Shown here piece by piece: positions 44,077 to 55,577 of a stretch of 64,000 nt of DNA (positions within the stretch are counted from its first letter, which is position 1; each line of letters begins with the position of its first letter). Below the pieces are notes generated by a model. That model saw only the letters and a list, made by a program, of their open reading frames with translations, searched no databases and was not told the origin of the DNA. The position numbers and the translations under genes were made by a program. The stretch comes from Sulfuricaulis sp. Its GTDB lineage: Bacteria > Pseudomonadota > Gammaproteobacteria > Acidiferrobacterales > Sulfurifustaceae. Location: the NCBI RefSeq assembly GCF_024653915.1, contig NZ_JANLGY010000020.1, positions 62,001 through 126,000 on the forward strand, given 5' to 3'.

Positions 44077-44370
44077 TCAAACACAACCCGTCGGTTTAGG
44101 CAGGCCACCGTACTTGGTGATCGGTTTCATCGGGCCGGTCATCCAGAGCTTGAACAGGTCTTTCTGATCCTCCTCGATGAACTTCGCGAATTTTCGAATC
44201 GGCGGCACCACGCTAAACTCTTCGTAATAATCACGCGCTTTCGTGATGTGCGACCACTTCAGGTCATCAAGCGCTACACCATCGACCTCCGCCATGGCGC
44301 GGCCAATTTCCGGTGTCCACGCGTCTCGATCAATCAAGTAACCATCACCATCACGTTGCGGAATTTCCAT
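44077..44370 (-). CDS. TusE/DsrC family sulfur-carrier-like protein
   Basis: 97 residues ending GGLPKPTGCV, with the penultimate cysteine that carries sulfur in this family. The second cysteine of true DsrC, about ten residues upstream, is replaced (MKPITKYGG has none), so it is TusE-like or a DsrC paralogue without the disulfide-forming pair. DsrC/TusE proteins relay sulfane sulfur to tRNA thiolation or sulfur oxidation. GAGAGG lies upstream of the start. It is monocistronic, between a terminator and the mutarotase gene. Confidence 0.9.
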   Translation of the reverse strand: MEIPQRDGDGYLIDRDAWTPEIGRAMAEVDGVALDDLKWSHITKARDYYEEFSVVPPIRKFAKFIEEDQKDLFKLWMTGPMKPITKYGGLPKPTGCV

Positions 44371-44488: not shown

Positions 44489-45406
44489 TTACCCTGAGTA
44501 TTTTTCCGTCCAATATTCCACCGCGAGCGTGTGACGGCTGCCTTTCCTGATTGTCACCACATTTTCCGCCGCGTTAGCGCTCTCAACACAAACCATCCCG
44601 CGCCAGCCATCCGGGCCAAAATCACCCATTTTATTGGCCTTCTCGGTCCAGGGATTCCACACCACGGTTGAGTAACTACCCGATTTCGCTACATGGATGC
44701 GACGCTTCAAGCGCGGATCTTCAATCACGCACTCGGCATCGGTATTCGAATAAATCCGGTCTGTCTCTGCGGAGAAAACCACCGGTCCGTCCTGGCGGCG
44801 ATGCACATTGCCGCCACCCACCTTGTCGAGGTAGTCACAACCTTCCAACCCGCCGATGCGGATATCAGCAATGTCACCAATGTGAAAATAAGCATGCAAG
44901 GCCTCACCAATGACTGCATCTTCATTCCCGAGATTGTCGGTGGCAAGCGCAATCTTGAGTCTCGGCCCCACGGTGATGGTAATAGATAACTTTGTCCGAT
45001 GTGGCCACATGGTGCGCGTCTGATCTGTTTCCACCAGAGTCAGCGCTATTTCAGTTGCACCGTTATCGAGTGCGCGCGTGGCGGTCACTTCCCATGGCAC
45101 GGTACGAGCGAACCCATGCGTCGGTCGCTTGGGATCTGTCGCGTGTGTCCCAAACCATGGCCAGCACACCGGCACACCACCGCGAATAGATTTCCCGGGA
45201 GTAAAATTGGCGGCGCGCGATAGCCACACCACGGGCTCGGTTTCCGATTTCGGCTGCCAGCTCATGATATGCCCACCTTGCAGGGCAAGGGTGGCACTGG
45301 CATGGGCATTAATCACTTCCATAACAGCCAGGCCACCTGGCATTTCCTTGAAAGAAATCTGTCCAGACAGACCAAAACGCAGGTTTAAAGCAGATAAATC
45401 AGCCAT
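44489..45406 (-). CDS. D-hexose-6-phosphate mutarotase (YeaD-like)
   Basis: 305 residues. GGVPVCWPWFG, PTHGFARTVPWEV and GEALHAYFHIGDI follow the glucose-6-phosphate 1-epimerase family (YeaD in E. coli, YMR099c in yeast), with the catalytic His in the HAYF region and Glu in the C-terminal half. It equilibrates alpha and beta anomers of glucose-6-phosphate. It lies downstream of, and on the same strand as, the ParA-glycogen-binding fusion, 171 bp away. Confidence 0.9.
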   Translation of the reverse strand: MADLSALNLRFGLSGQISFKEMPGGLAVMEVINAHASATLALQGGHIMSWQPKSETEPVVWLSRAANFTPGKSIRGGVPVCWPWFGTHATDPKRPTHGFARTVPWEVTATRALDNGATEIALTLVETDQTRTMWPHRTKLSITITVGPRLKIALATDNLGNEDAVIGEALHAYFHIGDIADIRIGGLEGCDYLDKVGGGNVHRRQDGPVVFSAETDRIYSNTDAECVIEDPRLKRRIHVAKSGSYSTVVWNPWTEKANKMGDFGPDGWRGMVCVESANAAENVVTIRKGSRHTLAVEYWTEKYSG

Positions 45407-45577: not shown

Positions 45578-46720
45578 CTAGGCGCTGGCCGTTTCCTGTT
45601 CTTCCTCCACTTGCAAGACCGAATTGAATCCACCTGAATAATTCGGCACCTGTTCGGGATTGGAGGGATCCTCCTGCCAGATGCCATCAACAATTAAACG
45701 ATACTGATATGCGCCGGGCATCAACATGACAACTTTTTCCACAAAGTCGTTTTCCGTACGGGTAACGATGCCTTGATCCGGCCGCCAGTCATTGAAACTT
45801 CCAGCGAGCTTCACATCCCTGCCGTTGAAATCGTAAAAGCGCAACACCACCTTTTGTCTTCCGCCATGCCCAGCGAGACGCGACCTGGCTTCTTCGAAGG
45901 CGCGCTTCATCGCGGTCAGGCGCGACAAGGTCTCGCTTTCGCTTTCACCCACTGCCGCCGCAGGGTCCTGCAAAATAAACATCAGCTCATTCGCCAGCCG
46001 ATCGTACTGCACGGCAACAGTCGAAGTCGGGTCATAGGCAATGATCGGCACACCCTGGCGCACGGCCTCTTTAAGCCGCACCGTGAACTGCACCATGACG
46101 GACAGCACATCATCGGCAAAGCGCTCTCCCACCTCATGCAAAAACTGCCGACACAGGCGCGTGCGACTGTCGACCAACGTGGGCAGAACACGGATAGGAA
46201 TTTTACGTCCATGGCGTTCACGCAACTCACGGATGATTTCGTACATCCGGTCGATGCCGTGCATGCCAAACAGACTCATCTCGATCGGGATCAGCACCAG
46301 GTCCGCCGCCGTCAGCGCATTGAAGCAGAGCAGCCCCATTGAGGGTGGGCAGTCGATAACGATATAGTCGTAGCGATCGCGGATCGGCGCCAAGTGTTTC
46401 TCAAGCTGAATGTCGCGCTCATCGCTTCGAACCGGCAGATGTTCCGCCGCGGCGAGCATCTTGGTCGCTGGGGCCACATCCACGCCGGTGAAAACATTGG
46501 GCAGAATAATATCTTCGATACCGATTTCCCCGGTTAAAACATCATACAAATCGCGCGCGTCCTCGTTGTATACACCGAATCCCAGCGAGGAGTGGCCCTG
46601 CGGGTCCAGGTCCAGTAACAATACACGCTGTTCTTTTTTTCCAAGACAGGCAGCGAGATTGATAGCGGTAGTGGTTTTCCCGCAACCACCCTTCTGATTG
46701 GCAACGGCAATGATTTTCAT
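45578..46720 (-). CDS. ParA/Soj-type ATPase fused to a C-terminal glycogen-binding (AMPK-beta-like CBM48) domain
   Basis: 380 residues. Residues 1-250 form a ParA ATPase: deviant Walker A KGGCGKTTT (10-18), Walker A' LLLDLDPQGHSS (35-45) and Walker B YIVIDCPPS (119-127). Residues about 255-285 look like a charged helical linker. Residues about 290-373 match the carbohydrate-binding module of AMPK beta subunits: VKLAGSFNDW, AYQYRLIVDG, IWQEDP and GGFNSVLQV. The sugar-stacking and contact residues Trp312, Trp348 and Asn366 are retained; the usual Lys is Arg341. No ParB gene is nearby. GGAGG precedes the start. A role in positioning glycogen or linking polysaccharide state to a ParA switch is my inference. 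Confidence 0.9.
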   Translation of the reverse strand: MKIIAVANQKGGCGKTTTAINLAACLGKKEQRVLLLDLDPQGHSSLGFGVYNEDARDLYDVLTGEIGIEDIILPNVFTGVDVAPATKMLAAAEHLPVRSDERDIQLEKHLAPIRDRYDYIVIDCPPSMGLLCFNALTAADLVLIPIEMSLFGMHGIDRMYEIIRELRERHGRKIPIRVLPTLVDSRTRLCRQFLHEVGERFADDVLSVMVQFTVRLKEAVRQGVPIIAYDPTSTVAVQYDRLANELMFILQDPAAAVGESESETLSRLTAMKRAFEEARSRLAGHGGRQKVVLRFYDFNGRDVKLAGSFNDWRPDQGIVTRTENDFVEKVVMLMPGAYQYRLIVDGIWQEDPSNPEQVPNYSGGFNSVLQVEEEQETASA

Positions 46721-47206: not shown

Positions 47207-47851
47207 TTATTCATCCTGCCTTTCCGGCTGTGACAACCACTGGTCGATGGCAGGTTGCAGCTCATCGAACGGACGGTAGCCGTTGGTCAAAAGCGTGCCG
47301 GTAGCTCCGTCTTGCAAAACCACGGTCGGGAATCCACGCACTCCGGATTCGCGGGCGATCTGAAAATGTGTTTGCGTCTTTTTCTGCATTTCGTCAGATC
47401 GAAACCGATCGAGGAACACCGTCCTCTCTATATTATGTTGCTCTGCCAGCTCTGCCAGTGTTTCTGGCTGGGTGACATTCCGCCCGAGCGCATAAAATGC
47501 CTCCTGCACCGATTTGAAATAGGGAAAGATAGCCTCGGAATTAATGTCAGCCACGGCGATCACCGCGCGACTGGGTGGTTCAGTATCGTAGACAAATCCT
47601 TCAGGCATCGCGCCCTCGAAAGTGAAGGGCTGGCCCGTCATGCGGTGCACATCCTGCCAGTGATGCAGAATTTCTTCGCGTGATTTTAGCGCCATGGGTT
47701 CGGTCGTGCCCGGTCGGAGCCCGCCCAGCATCAGGGCTATCTTCACGCGGTCGGAATAGGCCTCCTTGATCGCGCTGATCACGGGCGCGAAGCCCCAGCA
47801 CCACGAACACATGGGGTCGGCGAAATACCACAGGATCCGTTGTGTCGGCAT
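47207..47851 (-). CDS. DsbA family thioredoxin-fold protein (CSWC motif)
   Basis: 214 residues. DPMCSWCWGFAP carries the redox cysteines Cys15 and Cys18, and GVRGFPTVVL contains the cis-proline loop. No signal peptide is present, so it is a cytoplasmic FrnE/DsbA-like oxidoreductase. The substrate is unknown. It lies 84 bp after the MEKHLA gene on the same strand. Confidence 0.88.
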   Translation of the reverse strand: MPTQRILWYFADPMCSWCWGFAPVISAIKEAYSDRVKIALMLGGLRPGTTEPMALKSREEILHHWQDVHRMTGQPFTFEGAMPEGFVYDTEPPSRAVIAVADINSEAIFPYFKSVQEAFYALGRNVTQPETLAELAEQHNIERTVFLDRFRSDEMQKKTQTHFQIARESGVRGFPTVVLQDGATGTLLTNGYRPFDELQPAIDQWLSQPERQDE

Positions 47852-47935: not shown

Positions 47936-48553
47936 TTAAAGATATTCCCATTCGTGTATCAACACCGCCTGCCCGGACGGCTTGCCGTGCGCATCCATAA
48001 CGTTCCATACGGTGGCACGCTGGATATGAAAGCGCCGGCCGGTGGCGGAGAGGCGAATTCCACTGTAATCGTCAGTGAAGCCCTGGCGCCTCACACGTTC
48101 CAGCAGTTGTGCCCGCTCCTCGCGCTCCATCGGTTCCGCTGACAGGCGCGAAGGAGTAGATGTGAAATCATTCCATCCGGCTTCAAAAAGCGCGAGTGCC
48201 GCACGATTGGCATAATTGAAAATCGGATCGGTCTCGGTACCGTGCGAGGCCACCACGAACGGTGCTTCGTGAATTGCCCTCGCCTGTTGCAGCGGAGACA
48301 TCCCGGAATCAACCAGATTGCGACCAGTCCAGTGACGAAAACTGTTTACCAACAGCGATACATGAGATGAAAGAAAATCGTTACTTACGTCCGGCTCGCG
48401 GAATCCTGCGTGACCGGATTGTGCGCCATTCTTCTTATCTCTACCCCCTCCATTCTTGCGAATCTTCGGCACCCGCTGGCGCCACAACCAATACAGCGCC
48501 AAGCCGGTGAGCACAATGTTCAGAACAATTCCCACTACAAAAAAATTAGACAT
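47936..48553 (-). CDS. MEKHLA domain protein with N-terminal membrane anchor
   Basis: 205 residues from MSNFFVVGIVLNIVLTGLAL, a membrane segment, then a charged linker. The C-terminal MEKHLA domain follows (LVNSFRHWTGRNL, EAPFVVASHGTETDPIFNYAN, ALFEAGWNDFTSTPSR, GRRFHIQRATVWNV). MEKHLA is a PAS-related sensor-like fold usually soluble and of unknown ligand; here it is tethered to the membrane. It follows the terminator of the respiratory operon. An upstream start at 48598 is possible but would bury the membrane segment. Confidence 0.8.
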   Translation of the reverse strand: MSNFFVVGIVLNIVLTGLALYWLWRQRVPKIRKNGGGRDKKNGAQSGHAGFREPDVSNDFLSSHVSLLVNSFRHWTGRNLVDSGMSPLQQARAIHEAPFVVASHGTETDPIFNYANRAALALFEAGWNDFTSTPSRLSAEPMEREERAQLLERVRRQGFTDDYSGIRLSATGRRFHIQRATVWNVMDAHGKPSGQAVLIHEWEYL

Positions 48554-48653
48554 GATTCGCGTGCATGCTCGTGAGGTGATTTTTCCTGGCGCAGCCATTA
48601 CACCAATTGACGAGGAATCCTAACATAGAGACATACACGCTACGGAAAACAAA

Positions 48654-48703: not shown

Positions 48704-49309
48704 TCAATCTTCTACTTCCTCCCAGCCGGTAATCATGGCCTTGATGTGGGAGGTCGGTGTGTGACCGGTAGTAGCGAGATAAACATGGGCGATGAAAAAT
48801 ATCAGGATCATGTAGGCGCCCAGCACATGGAAGAACGACACCCATTCCAGCGAAAGGTAACCGGCCACGCCCAACTCCGCCCACTGGCCATAGAACAGGT
48901 AAAACCAGCCGGAAAACCAGATTACCGGCGATATCACCAGCCAGAAAAACAGGTAGGCCAGGCGCTGCAGCGGATTGTGCTTGCGCAGCGTGGTCTGGCG
49001 GAACGGATGCGGCGCACGGGTGAAGATGCCGGTCAGATAATAATTGAACATGGCGCCAACCTTTTCGAGCGTTGGAACGTACTGTTTCCATTCGCCGGTG
49101 GTTAGATGCCAGAACACAGCGAACACCCACAGCGTAATCAGCGTCCAGGCGGCTATGGTGTGCAGGTTCACCGCCGTGCCGAAACCGAAAAGTTTGTAGG
49201 CGCCATGCACCTCGAACCCCGTGAGCAACAGGAAGATAATCGTTGCCGCCTGCGCCCAGTGCCAGAACCGCTCGAAGCGCCTGAAAATATAGATTCTTTC
49301 GGCTGCCAT
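48704..49309 (-). CDS. Membrane cytochrome b subunit (thiosulfate-reductase/formate-dehydrogenase type)
   Basis: 201 residues from MAAERIYIFRRFERFWHWAQ. About four to five membrane helices with candidate haem-ligand histidines are visible: RFWHWAQAATIIFLLLTG, VNLHTIAAWTLITLWVF, and FFHVLGAYMILIFFIAHVYL. It is likely the quinol-oxidising partner of the octaheme cytochrome encoded directly upstream; only one base lies between the two genes. The substrate link is inferred from context. Confidence 0.9.
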   Translation of the reverse strand: MAAERIYIFRRFERFWHWAQAATIIFLLLTGFEVHGAYKLFGFGTAVNLHTIAAWTLITLWVFAVFWHLTTGEWKQYVPTLEKVGAMFNYYLTGIFTRAPHPFRQTTLRKHNPLQRLAYLFFWLVISPVIWFSGWFYLFYGQWAELGVAGYLSLEWVSFFHVLGAYMILIFFIAHVYLATTGHTPTSHIKAMITGWEEVED

Positions 49310-49310
49310 G

Positions 49311-50921
49311 TTATTTCCCTCCCTTGCGATTGCTGAAGATGCGCAGAGAACCGTGGCCAATCACCCCGAGCAAGGCGAAGAATGCCGCGCCCCCGCCAAG
49401 GAGATCGAGCCAGCCATGGGAATCGCGCCCCGGCATGTAGATTCCGGCGATGTTTTTCAGGCGTCCGTCAGCACGGTGGCATTCGATACAGGCAAGTGCC
49501 TTGTCTTTCGGCGCCACCATATGCGTGATGGGCCAGCGCATTTCGGTCTCGATGAAGTCATACTTGCCGGAGTATGGCGCCTTCGCACTGGCCATGCCAA
49601 CGGTGATGGCCTTATCCCATCCGAAATTCGTCCAGTAAGCGGTGGTGTCTTGTCCCGCCGTATGCGGCTTGACCAGCGTGTTGTTCACTGGGTCGAACGG
49701 CTGCTTGCCGCGGAACACTTTGACCGGCCAGATCAACGATTTGCCGTCGTCAGGGCTGCCGTCAAAACGATTAATCGGCGTGACGCCAGCGCTCTTGTCG
49801 ACCTTGTCGGTGATCAAAGTGAAACGAACCTTGCCGTTGAACCACTGATACTCTGGTTCGACATTCTCACCGAGCACGAAGTCGCCCTTCTTGCTGTCGT
49901 AGATGACATGGCCCTTCTCGTCCTTCTTGACGATCGGCTTTCCCTTTTCGTCCATCTTGCCCGAGGTAGACCAGTCCCAGATCATTTTTGTCGCCACACC
50001 GCCACGTGCGATTGTCGGGATGTGACATGTCTGACAGGCGACCTTGCGTGCGTGGTCGTTGAGCCTGGCTTCCTTGAGTGAGTGCGGTCTGTCGCTATGA
50101 CAGGCGACACAGGTGGCCGGATTGCCTTTCGAGACCTTGCCGCGGAGGTGGCGACCTTCGGTATCTTTCGCCGTGGGTACGTAACGACTGCCCGGAATAT
50201 CATGCGCCGAAGTGAGGTGGCAGGTGCCGCAGGTGAAATCCAGCCCGGCGGCGTCCATGTGTACGTCGAGCTCGTGATCCGGAACGGTTAGTGAGCTGTC
50301 CAGGTCACCGTGCTTGACGCCGTCGCCGCCACCGCTGAAGAAGTGACATCCGCCGCAGGTATCGCGGCTGGTTTTCCCGATCTTCTGTGCGACCTGGGTC
50401 AGGTCAACCGGCTTGACGATCTTGCCGGAACCGGGCGGCAGTTCCATCTCCTTGTAGGCCGGATGACCGGCCAGGCCCGGCAACTTGCGGTACTTGCCGG
50501 TGGTGTCATGGCACACCAGGCAATCGACATTGGCTTCCGATTTGAAATCAAAATTGTCGTCCTTCCAGCCGTAGCCAACGTGGCAAGCCGTGCAGAAGGC
50601 GTAATTCGAAGCAACGGAAATGCAGAAATTATTGATGACGTTCTTCTTGCCGAGCCGCTGGCTGCTGTCGGGGTTCAGGAACTCCCAGGTCCAGTGCTTG
50701 GTACGGTGAACCTGCTTGGCCGCCTCAGTGTGGCAAGCGAGGCAGGCCTTGGTCACCTCGGGGCCGGAGGCGAAGGTTTTCTGCAGCTCCTTGAACTTGG
50801 AGTGGTCGGCGGTGGTGGTCTTGGACACGGCCAGCGCCGCGCCGCTGAACAGGAGGCCAAGCACCGTCAGCCAGATACCGATTATCGTCGCGCCAAATCG
50901 ACAGCCACGCCTGTTATTCAT
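49311..50921 (-). CDS. Octaheme c-type cytochrome, tetrathionate reductase (OTR) family
   Basis: 536 residues with a signal-like N-terminus (residues 10-32). Eight CxxCH haem sites lie at Cys60, 110, 134, 189, 231, 271, 296 and 478. The stretch KKNVINNFCISVASNYAFC is typical of the octaheme tetrathionate reductase family first studied in Shewanella, where one haem has a lysine ligand. A C-terminal membrane helix (GGAAFFALLGVIGHGSLRIF) anchors it. Members reduce tetrathionate, and in vitro nitrite or hydroxylamine; the true substrate here is not proven. GGAGG precedes the start. It is third in the cytochrome c-yedE-otr-cytochrome b operon. Confidence 0.93.
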   Translation of the reverse strand: MNNRRGCRFGATIIGIWLTVLGLLFSGAALAVSKTTTADHSKFKELQKTFASGPEVTKACLACHTEAAKQVHRTKHWTWEFLNPDSSQRLGKKNVINNFCISVASNYAFCTACHVGYGWKDDNFDFKSEANVDCLVCHDTTGKYRKLPGLAGHPAYKEMELPPGSGKIVKPVDLTQVAQKIGKTSRDTCGGCHFFSGGGDGVKHGDLDSSLTVPDHELDVHMDAAGLDFTCGTCHLTSAHDIPGSRYVPTAKDTEGRHLRGKVSKGNPATCVACHSDRPHSLKEARLNDHARKVACQTCHIPTIARGGVATKMIWDWSTSGKMDEKGKPIVKKDEKGHVIYDSKKGDFVLGENVEPEYQWFNGKVRFTLITDKVDKSAGVTPINRFDGSPDDGKSLIWPVKVFRGKQPFDPVNNTLVKPHTAGQDTTAYWTNFGWDKAITVGMASAKAPYSGKYDFIETEMRWPITHMVAPKDKALACIECHRADGRLKNIAGIYMPGRDSHGWLDLLGGGAAFFALLGVIGHGSLRIFSNRKGGK

Positions 50922-53292: not shown

Positions 53293-54597
53293 ATGAGCCC
53301 GCAACGCGTCAGTCCAAATAATAAAACCTCCGCCGGTATTTCCCTGTCACCCCGGGAAACCCTGGCAGAACGCTACACCACCGTACGGCGCATGAGCGAG
53401 GCGCTGTGCCAGCCGCTGGCGCCGGACGATTACAACCTGCAAGCAATACCGGAGGTCAGCCCAGCCAAGTGGCACCTCGCGCACACCACCTGGTTCTTTG
53501 AAACTTTCCTGCTCAAGTATTTTCTTTCCCGTTACCAGCCATTCCATCCTCATTTCGAGCACCTGTTCAACTCCTATTATGAACAGGTCGGTCAGCCGTT
53601 CCCGCGCGCGCAGCGCGGGCTGATTTCACGACCCACGACGGAGGAAGTTCTTCGTTACCGCGCGCAAGTCGACGCGGCCATGGCGGCCTTGCTGGCCTCG
53701 GCGGAAGAGGCCCACTGGCCCGAAGTGGCGGAGCGTGTCAGCCTCGGTTGCCATCACGAAGAACAACATCAGGAACTGTTCCTGACGGATATCAAATACA
53801 ACCTCTCGATCAATCCGCTCAGGCCGGCTTACCGGTCCGATCTGCCGAAGACTGACACTGGCACGACCACGTCGCTGGCATGGATCGAACAGCCCGGCGG
53901 TGTGCAGGAAATCGGGCATGACGGGAATGGTTTTTCCTTTGACAACGAGACGCCACGTCATCGCGTGTTACTGGCAACTTATGCGCTGGGCTCGCGTCTG
54001 ACTACGAATGGCGAATTTCTTGAATTTATCGAGGCCGGTGGTTATCAGCGTCCGGAATACTGGCTCGCGGACGGCTGGCGCACCGCACGCGAGAAATCCT
54101 GGCAGGCGCCGCTTTACTGGGAAAAGGCTGGCGCCCGCTGGCAAGTTTTTACACTCGCGGGCATGCGTGAACTGAACGAACACGAGCCGGCGTGTCATGT
54201 GAGTTTCTACGAGGCCGATGCCTACGCGCGCTGGGCCGGGAAACGTCTGCCGAGCGAGGGCGAGTGGGAGGTGATCGCGAATCAGGAAGCGTTGCGCGGC
54301 AACCTGCGCGAATCAGGCTACCTGCACCCGGCGCCCGTCACCGGCGAAGAAAGACCGGCACAACTGTATGGTGACGCATGGGAATGGACCCGCAGCGCCT
54401 ATGCGCCCTATCCCGGCTACCGGCCTGCCGCGGGCGCGCTCGGCGAATACAACGGCAAATTCATGGTCAACCAGCTGGTCTTGCGCGGCGGGTCGTGCGT
54501 CACGCCCGCGGATCATGTGCGCGCGAGCTGTCGAAACTTCTTCTATCCCGCGGACCGCTGGCAGTTTTCCGGCATCCGCCTGGCGGACGACCGATGA
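53293..54597 (+). CDS. egtB: Ergothioneine biosynthesis sulfoxide synthase EgtB
   Basis: 434 residues. An N-terminal DinB-like domain carries the iron-binding histidines: His64 in HLAHTTWFFE and the HX3HXE motif (His155, His159, Glu161) in HHEEQHQE. The C-terminal FGE-sulfatase domain includes GDAWEWTRSAY and VLRGGSCVTP. EgtB joins a thiol to trimethylhistidine using O2. AGGGAGG supports the start. It overlaps egtD by 4 bp. Confidence 0.95.
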   Translation: MSPQRVSPNNKTSAGISLSPRETLAERYTTVRRMSEALCQPLAPDDYNLQAIPEVSPAKWHLAHTTWFFETFLLKYFLSRYQPFHPHFEHLFNSYYEQVGQPFPRAQRGLISRPTTEEVLRYRAQVDAAMAALLASAEEAHWPEVAERVSLGCHHEEQHQELFLTDIKYNLSINPLRPAYRSDLPKTDTGTTTSLAWIEQPGGVQEIGHDGNGFSFDNETPRHRVLLATYALGSRLTTNGEFLEFIEAGGYQRPEYWLADGWRTAREKSWQAPLYWEKAGARWQVFTLAGMRELNEHEPACHVSFYEADAYARWAGKRLPSEGEWEVIANQEALRGNLRESGYLHPAPVTGEERPAQLYGDAWEWTRSAYAPYPGYRPAAGALGEYNGKFMVNQLVLRGGSCVTPADHVRASCRNFFYPADRWQFSGIRLADDR

Positions 54598-55577
54598 ACC
54601 AACGCGCCATTCGCTTCTACGACGACCATCCGGCACCGGCGACAATGCTGGAAGAAGTCCTGCAAGGGCTGGCGTCACGACCCCGGCGCATCGCGCCGAA
54701 ATTCTTCTACGACGAGCGCGGCTCGCGCCTGTTCGATGCCATCTGCGAATTACCCGAGTACTACCCGACGCGCACCGAGATGGGAATTCTGGAATCCTGC
54801 GCCGACGAGGTGGCGCGCCTGTCCGGGCCGGACGGAACGCTGATTGAGCTTGGCAGCGGTGCCAGCAAGAAAATCCGGTTGCTGCTCGAAGCGGTACGGC
54901 CGCGCCGCTATCTCGGCATCGACATCTCGCGTGAATTCCTGCGGCAATCCGTGCAGCGCCTGGCACACGATTACCCGTGGCTTGAGGTGCAGGCGGCTTG
55001 CACCGATTTCATGCAGGATTTTGAATTGCCCGGAGGCGCGGGGGAGGGGAAAAAACTCGCGTTCTTTCCGGGATCGACCATCGGCAATTTCGAGCCGCAT
55101 GACGCTTTGGCTTTTCTGCAGCGGGTGCGTCGCCTGGTGCAACCCGACGGCGCCCTGCTGATCGGCGTCGATCTCAAGAAGGACCCGCAGATATTGCACG
55201 CGGCCTACAACGACAGCGCCGGCATCACCGCGCAATTCAATCTCAATCTGCTGCTACGCCTGCGCGATGAACTCGGCGCCGAACTCGATCCGCAGGGTTT
55301 CAGGCACCGCGCATTTTACAACACCGCCCGTGGCCGCATCGAAATGCATCTGATCAGCCGCCGTGCGCAGGACATCCGCCTGCTCGGACGGCGTTTCCAT
55401 TTTGAACCGGGAGAAAGCATCCACACCGAGAATTCTTATAAATATACGCTGGAGGAATTTCATGTACTCGCACGTGGCGCCGGTCTGCGGCCACGTCAGG
55501 CGTGGCTGGACTCGGCGCATCTTTTCAGCGTTCATTACCTGAGTGTCGTTTCCCGGTCCCGTCCGCGCGCGGCCTGA
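54594..55577 (+). CDS. egtD: L-histidine N-alpha-methyltransferase EgtD
   Basis: 327 residues from MNQRAIRFYDDHPAPATM. SAM-binding IELGSGASKKI is near residue 81, and PKFFYDERGSRLFDAICELPEYYPTRTE is the family's start block (given here in pieces). It trimethylates histidine to hercynine, the EgtB substrate. The ATGA overlap with egtB shows coupled translation. No egtA, egtC or egtE is next to it, so an alternative thiol donor or unlinked genes must complete the pathway. Confidence 0.95.
   Translation: MNQRAIRFYDDHPAPATMLEEVLQGLASRPRRIAPKFFYDERGSRLFDAICELPEYYPTRTEMGILESCADEVARLSGPDGTLIELGSGASKKIRLLLEAVRPRRYLGIDISREFLRQSVQRLAHDYPWLEVQAACTDFMQDFELPGGAGEGKKLAFFPGSTIGNFEPHDALAFLQRVRRLVQPDGALLIGVDLKKDPQILHAAYNDSAGITAQFNLNLLLRLRDELGAELDPQGFRHRAFYNTARGRIEMHLISRRAQDIRLLGRRFHFEPGESIHTENSYKYTLEEFHVLARGAGLRPRQAWLDSAHLFSVHYLSVVSRSRPRAA

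Follow-up and report, generated by a model that had tools for sequence, protein, structure and literature searches.

In the 64,000-nucleotide stretch of Sulfuricaulis DNA analysed here (the window), one gene encodes a protein in which a complete ParA-type ATPase continues, in the same reading frame, into a module of the AMPK-beta type, a sugar-polymer-binding domain by which animal cells sense glycogen. We read the protein as a ParA-family ATPase with a cargo-type module in cis. The same architecture is present in several bacterial phyla, mostly in genomes equipped for glycogen synthesis, and its ATPase core as well as its sugar-contact tryptophans and asparagine are invariant. On this basis, it is proposed that the protein positions or partitions glycogen, or a glycogen-bound complex, by means of a ParA with its own tether, a reading to which we assign a probability of about 45%. 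Some bacteria may, thus, use the fusion to arrange or keep track of the glycogen they store.

Architecture of the fusion protein

The gene is read from the minus strand (Table 1), frame 1 of the plus strand being interrupted by several stops over the same interval. Pfam assigns residues 1-173 to AAA_31 (E 3e-54; 184.1 bits versus a cut-off of 27) and residues 297-374 to AMPK1_CBM (PF16561; E 8.1e-13; 48.8 bits versus a curated cut-off of 26.8), with the fusion gene being the only match to the latter family in the window genome. When the C-terminal 94 amino acids were compared with the PDB by phmmer, the glycogen-binding domain of AMPK beta-1 was retrieved (1z0n/1z0m, E 1e-11), and the tryptophans of FNDW and DGIW as well as the asparagine of NS in the fusion were aligned with FNNW, DGQW and NN of AMPK beta. 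The AlphaFold2 model, based on a 54-row alignment (mean pLDDT 89.6, pTM 0.70), consists of two confident domains at residues ~1-250 and 289-371, the second of which is beta-rich, with a low-confidence linker between them. The best structural matches of its ParA part are Soj/ParA structures, on which it superimposes with Z-scores of 35-38 and an rmsd of 1.3-1.7 Å over 241-250 residues. ParA matches filled the list of structural hits shown for the model, and no hit to the carbohydrate-binding module (CBM) is among them; hence, the identity of the CBM rests on sequence (Pfam, phmmer).

Table 1. Features of the window discussed in the text.
Feature	Position	Strand	Basis
DsrC-like small protein, near the fusion	44077..44370	minus	PF04358, E 6.3e-22
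Aldose-1-epimerase-family gene, 171 nt downstream of the fusion	44489..45406	minus	Pfam PF01263, E 3.2e-46
ParA-AMPK1_CBM fusion, 380 aa, stop codon included	45578..46720	minus	Open reading frame, Pfam
AMPK-beta-type glycogen-binding module, Pfam residues 297-374	45599..45832	minus	Pfam, phmmer, conservation
Linker, residues ~251-288, with low-confidence helix 261-284	45857..45970	minus	AlphaFold2 model, alignment
ParA ATPase domain, residues ~1-250	45971..46720	minus	Pfam AAA_31, fold matches, conservation
DsbA-like gene, upstream of the fusion	47207..47851	minus
MEKHLA-domain gene, upstream of the fusion	47936..48598	minus
b-type cytochrome, after the octaheme gene	48704..49360	minus	Thiosulfate reductase cytochrome b-like, under model cut-off
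Octaheme tetrathionate-reductase-family cytochrome	49311..50921	minus	TIGR04315, E 5.7e-189
FGE-sulfatase + DinB_2 protein	53293..54597	plus
Methyltransf_33 protein	54378..55577	plus

Walker A has the sequence NQKGGCGKT at residues 8-16 (with K10 and K15), and the Walker B aspartate is D123. In the CBM, Trp312, Arg341, Trp348 and Asn366 are of the sugar-contact type; we take the two tryptophans, the Lys/Arg and the asparagine to be the sugar-contact residues of AMPK. An earlier note, made from the sequence alone, had described, with no strand named, an in-frame continuation of a ParA ATPase into an AMPK-beta-type module, and Pfam, phmmer and the two-domain model all agree with it; the deviant Walker A and the Walker B motif it had seen are present, and the Pfam search it had suggested for the C-terminal module returned AMPK1_CBM above the curated cut-off.

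The distance from Walker A to the CBM motif ranges from 258 to 416 residues within the 54-row alignment and is longer in some Nitrospirota; such wide variation of linker length is as expected of a tether. Very long low-complexity linkers are found in two Nitrospirota fusions, one (L041:6123-8276) with EELLAADEDD units and the other (L022:5846-7558) with repeats of the KTSTAKT type. The alignment comprises the window and 53 other loci, with L039, L043 and L082 omitted because of a stop in the stretch used, and others because of thinning or long inserts.

Distribution, origin and conservation

A search with the C-terminal portion of the CBM matched 13 of the 274 class genomes, which belong to 10 of 221 genera; twelve of them have the fusion and one (G080) has a CBM but no ParA. 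A contig scan with the CBM alignment yielded 376 stretches, 316 of which were relatives, and the best 80 of these 316 were retained. Together with L002 (the window locus), L003, L006, L010 and L012, they constitute the 85 loci on which the following counts are based (L066 and L071 come from the same MAG); L001, L004, L005, L007, L008, L009, L011, L013 and L014, residing on contigs shared with the window or the named loci, had been removed beforehand. Walker A is found in the same frame as the CBM in 73 of the 85 loci. The other twelve are six CBM-only operon loci (L012, L042, L057, L060, L061 and L074), two loci cut by a contig end (L045 and L093), and four other CBM proteins (L084, L088, L089 and L092). 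The recurrence of the fusion in 12/274 class genomes and in 73/85 CBM loci argues that it is neither a product of chance nor an assembly join.

Fused loci occur in Gammaproteobacteria, Nitrospirota, Deltaproteobacteria/Myxococcota (Myxococcales) and Planctomycetota. Among the best 80 of 316 relatives, the nearest named ones are MAGs of “Candidatus Muproteobacteria”, of unclassified gammaproteobacteria and of Sulfuricaulis, with a CBM identity of 73-88%, from which the host is probably a sulfur oxidiser of the Sulfuricaulis type. In a tree of the ParA domain, all fusions (54/54) group into one clade with a support of 0.94 relative to six other ParA/MinD sequences; a single fusion event is likely on this tree, the outgroup of which, with six sequences, is small.

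The ATPase residues K10, K15, D39 and D123 are identical in all 73 fused proteins, as is the histidine at position 43 (DPQGH), and cysteine occupies position 13 of Walker A in 72 of them. A degenerate pattern of NQKGGCGKT was matched in 12 of the 274 class genomes, which are exactly the twelve fusion genomes, once each and at the fusion gene. Basic residues that presumably correspond to the nucleoid-DNA-binding arginines of Soj-type ParA are also largely retained (R186 as R in 61, R188 as R/K in 71 and R215 as R/K in 70 of the 73). The 73 include L039, L043 and L082; open reading frame ends were taken from tblastn matches, which may contain internal stops.

In the CBM, W312, W348, N366, Y340 and G363 are identical in 85/85 loci and position 341 is R/K in 81/85, so that the retention of Trp312, Trp348 and Asn366, pointed out in the earlier note for the single protein and seen in the alignment with AMPK beta, extends to every locus compared. 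W312, Y340 and R341 lie inside the patterns used in the search for relatives; W348 and N366 lie outside these patterns and, thus, provide the fairer evidence.

Glycogen genes in carrier genomes

The window genome encodes GlgC, GlgA, GlgB, alpha-glucan phosphorylase and MalQ and, hence, a complete glycogen pathway. One 16-kb stretch of it contains glgC, glgA, malQ and the genes for alpha-glucan phosphorylase and glucokinase, along with a relative of GH57-type branching enzymes scoring under the model cut-off, while glgB is located elsewhere; within the window, glycogen genes do not adjoin the fusion. A GT5 glycogen synthase above cut-off is present in all 13 class carriers versus 157 of the 274 class genomes overall (hypergeometric P 5.8e-4 by genome and 3e-3 by genus, the genus count being the only correction for ancestry). 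GlgB is likewise above cut-off in 13/13, a figure for the carriers alone.

A further survey covered 50 of 61 listed carrier loci, including L093 with its ParA cut by the contig end. GT5 was found above cut-off in 45 and as a strong match (E < 1e-30) in 39; planctomycete loci L085, L090 and L091 have a GT3 synthase instead (E ~1e-265; two with one in-frame TAG), giving a recognised synthase in 42/50. Phosphorylase was detected in seven of the 11 carriers without a strong GT5, and GH13-type GlgB exceeded the strict cut-off in 32/50, falling below it in 18/50, including four Nitrospirota. Altogether, 46/50 genomes contain a strong GT5, a GT3, GlgB or a phosphorylase, or several of these. No convincing GT5/GT3, GlgB or phosphorylase was found in the remaining four (L077, L080, L083 and L086, all MAGs); such absences are weak, since genome completeness was not given, and three of the four, from Deltaproteobacteria/Myxococcota, may be a real exception. 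The expectation that the fusion goes along with glycogen genes, accordingly, stood for the class, where all 13 carriers have GlgA and GlgB, and for the host with its complete pathway, but it fell short in these four further carriers; carriers in which no convincing glycogen synthesis gene was found, the kind of genome named in the earlier note as contrary evidence, form a minority. Considering both the conserved contact residues and the co-occurrence in genomes, the CBM is likely to bind a glycan.

Gene neighbourhood in the window and in relatives

In the window, the direct neighbours examined are the epimerase, DsbA-like, MEKHLA and cytochrome genes, and neither a parB nor a transcriptional regulator is among them. 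The downstream gene, annotated as a hexose-6-phosphate mutarotase in the earlier note, does contain an aldose-epimerase domain, but clustering places such a gene after the fusion in only three loci (the window, L003 and L019); as a neighbour, it is a candidate member of the same system. The MEKHLA and DsbA-like genes are likewise located upstream in L003, L015, L016 and L017. The surroundings additionally contain a DsrC-like protein and two cytochrome genes as well as, on the plus strand, an FGE-sulfatase/DinB_2 and methyltransferase pair that is probably of the ergothioneine type (EgtB/EgtD) (Table 1).

Many relatives reside in a different setting, a conserved operon that seems to be missing from the window genome and was out of view for the earlier note. 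Where at least 2 kb of downstream sequence is available (66 fused loci), a gene that we call the partner was matched in 50 and a third gene in 34; where the upstream side extends over at least 0.8 kb (70 fused loci), 44 have a MerR-type gene there (MerR being assigned by Pfam on one member). A stricter count that drops overlapping frames gives 40, 31 and 40, respectively, and by their N-termini the partner matches in L006, L058 and L072 are doubtful. Upstream of the fusions in L066, L067, L070 and L076, a gene grouped by clustering with a GH100 alkaline/neutral invertase lies at 2-3 kb on the opposite strand (Pfam E 1.7e-187 for the L067 member), and a 470-aa gene, phosphofructokinase-like by eye, is located downstream of the planctomycete fusions L085, L090 and L091.

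Partner profiles match FleN/FlhG chains in a PDB profile search (E 1e-8 to 1e-11, best 6.5e-10 and 1.7e-11), and, judged by eye, the P-loop is absent. The link to FleN/FlhG is made via this search; hhalign links the two partner profiles, A3 and A4, with one another (97.4), and direct comparison with the fusion gave hhalign probabilities of 2.9 (A3) and 36.5 (A4), by which a ParA relationship of the partner was rejected on this route. At its N-terminus, the partner has a motif of the R-L-x-x-I-S-H-H-F-L-S type, a loose expression of which fits 38/50 sequences. This region looks like the ParA-activating peptide of ParB, as exemplified by RLGRGLEDISHYFIS in the Nitrospirae loci L078, L081 and L082 versus RLGRGLDALLGS in the ParB of the window genome, an apparent likeness over a short stretch. 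According to published work, it is with a positively charged N-terminal region that the partners of ParA/MinD ATPases exert their effect (PMC10241942, PMC12204374).

When the window genome and its congener were searched with profiles, with no positive control in the search, neither the partner nor the third gene turned up, and the window genome, thus, seems to be without a partner. Of the 66 fused loci, 16 have no partner match, namely the window locus, L003, L015, L016, L018, L020, L021 and L023, the gammaproteobacterial L027, L031 and L035, and the planctomycete L085, L086, L087, L090 and L091. Orphan ATPases are described in PMC10241942; therefore, a missing nearby partner in the window does not exclude membership in the ParA/MinD family. 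Sequence searches of Pfam, NCBIfam and the PDB gave no match for the third gene, and its AlphaFold2 model (pLDDT 85) weakly resembles nuclease-fold proteins (XisH, EndoMS, Shedu nuclease; best E 1.3e-3, TM 0.31-0.45). Its nuclease-like character is a lead only, with loss of the catalytic residues being judged by eye.

In the six CBM-only operon loci, the MerR gene, CBM, partner and third gene are kept and ParA is absent. When CBM, partner and third gene are combined in one tree, L012 groups with the fused L051 and L057 with the fused L044/L046, each with a support of 1.0, which implies at least two separate losses of the ATPase. The CBM stretch of L012 is 93% identical to that of L051, its ParA traces are short and weak (E 0.02-0.03), and no NQKGGCGKT match was found in its genome (G080), a single contig. 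These operons indicate a use for CBM and partner without the ATPase. This favours either a sensor or a complex that sits on glycogen and gains spatial control through ParA.

Proposed mechanism and alternative readings

We propose that the ParA domain would bind nucleoid DNA as an ATP-bound dimer, while the C-terminal AMPK-beta-type module would hold alpha-glucan, i.e., glycogen. Cycles of ATP hydrolysis would then spread glycogen particles, or an enzyme complex bound to them, over the nucleoid and share them between the cells at division. The trigger of hydrolysis in most relatives would be the adjoining P-loop-less, FleN-like protein with its ParB-like N-terminus. Since no partner was found in the window genome, this task would fall there to the linker, to the binding of glycogen as such, or to a protein encoded elsewhere. 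More broadly, and tentatively, the loci could represent an ancient, dedicated system of glycogen positioning or partition across phyla, comprising the cis-fused ParA, in most cases a FleN-derived pseudo-ATPase with a ParB-like peptide, and in many a MerR regulator and a weakly nuclease-like, probably inactive protein. Counting against positioning are the ATPase-less operons, the 4/50 carriers without convincing glycogen genes, the 18/50 carriers below the strict cut-off for GH13-type GlgB, the 16/66 loci without a partner match, and the separate location of the glycogen genes in the window. PMC10241942 adds that in known systems the partner rather than the ATPase contacts the cargo, which speaks against positioning by a cis tether.

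Several of these observations would also suit a sensor of the glycogen state, in which glycan binding switches ParA between a monomer and a DNA-bound dimer and, thereby, controls something else, for instance transcription via the adjoining MerR-type regulator of relatives, or glycogen enzymes, in a manner resembling AMPK beta and its kinase. The MerR-type gene upstream in many loci and the homology of the partner to FleN/FlhG argue for it, FleN being an antiactivator of transcription, as does the persistence of the CBM and of the other three operon genes (MerR gene, partner, third gene) after loss of the ATPase. We nevertheless consider a sensor less likely than positioning, given that the ATPase residues are invariant in 73/73 proteins, beyond what a mere scaffold would need, and that none of the genes examined next to the fusion in the window encodes a transcriptional regulator. 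It is more doubtful still that the AMPK-like beta-sandwich has been reused for protein contact or for another polysaccharide, so that the cargo of ParA is not glycogen. Other immunoglobulin-like E-set domains do mediate protein contacts and four carriers are without convincing glycogen genes, but both contact tryptophans and the asparagine are identical in all 85 loci, a glycogen-type gene is present in 46/50 carriers, and the pathway of the window genome is complete.

That the protein is an ordinary chromosome or plasmid ParA, with the extra domain being incidental, is disfavoured and in our view very improbable, even though its ParA domain is 38-42% identical to Soj-type ParA. The genome possesses a separate ParA with an adjoining ParB elsewhere, so that the housekeeping role does not fall to the fusion; moreover, the fused domains form their own clade, have a private NQKGGCGKT motif, and do not reach the NCBIfam partition models (ParA_partition, 117.5 bits versus a cut-off of 180). 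As to a plasmid-borne origin, a tblastn search of plasmids matched at least 5000 records over the ParA part; at least one record has a place that covers 80% or more of the query, and the 15 matches listed cover 64-67%.

Other assignments were also rejected. The cellulose-biosynthesis ATPase BcsQ (TIGR03371) scores 65.6 bits versus a cut-off of 157.85. For a phage origin, a scan of viral contigs with the CBM alignment gave six stretches, none of which is a relative, and for anti-phage defence, PADLOC matches were weak and concerned generic ATPase and HTH parts (1.2e-4 and 1.3e-6).

Significance and comparison with known systems

Bacterial glycogen is usually regarded as free particles. A recent review states that bacterial glycogen is without protein content to cluster the particles (PMC11046441). 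No description of a fusion between ParA and a glycogen-binding domain was found in the open-licence literature searched, and the word glycogen is absent from the main text of a survey of ParA/MinD ATPases (PMC10241942). If the positioning of glycogen proposed above holds true, a storage polymer would be a positioned and inherited cargo, glycogen would join the cargoes of ParA ATPases as a new class, and a handle would be provided on how daughter cells divide their carbon stores.

Soj/ParA proteins (PDB 8ray, 2bek, 6iub) share with the fusion the fold, 35-42% identity, the Walker motifs and basic residues at the presumed DNA-contact positions. The fusion differs from them in having no adjoining parB, a cysteine in Walker A, a histidine in DPQGH and the glycan-binding module in cis. 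With the glycogen-binding domain of AMPK beta (PF16561, CBM48 type), it has in common the sequence match described above (E 1e-11) and the contact residues; in the present case, however, the module is attached to a bacterial ParA ATPase and not to a kinase complex. FleN/FlhG are matched by the profiles of the partner, which departs from them in the absent P-loop (by eye) and the ParB-like N-terminal motif. The plant protein PTST2, composed of a coiled coil and CBM48 and involved in starch granule initiation (PMC11772324), is also a non-enzymatic CBM48 protein that acts on glucan granules, but it is without an ATPase, concerns plastid starch and has different partners. Likewise a ParA-type ATPase for a non-DNA cargo is McdA, which positions carboxysomes (Cyanothece McdA, Z 32, 23-24% identity). 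While McdA, according to PMC12204374, reaches its cargo via McdB, the fusion has the cargo-type domain on the ATPase itself and would, if our reading is true, extend the logic of ParA systems from adaptor-borne to ATPase-borne cargo recognition.
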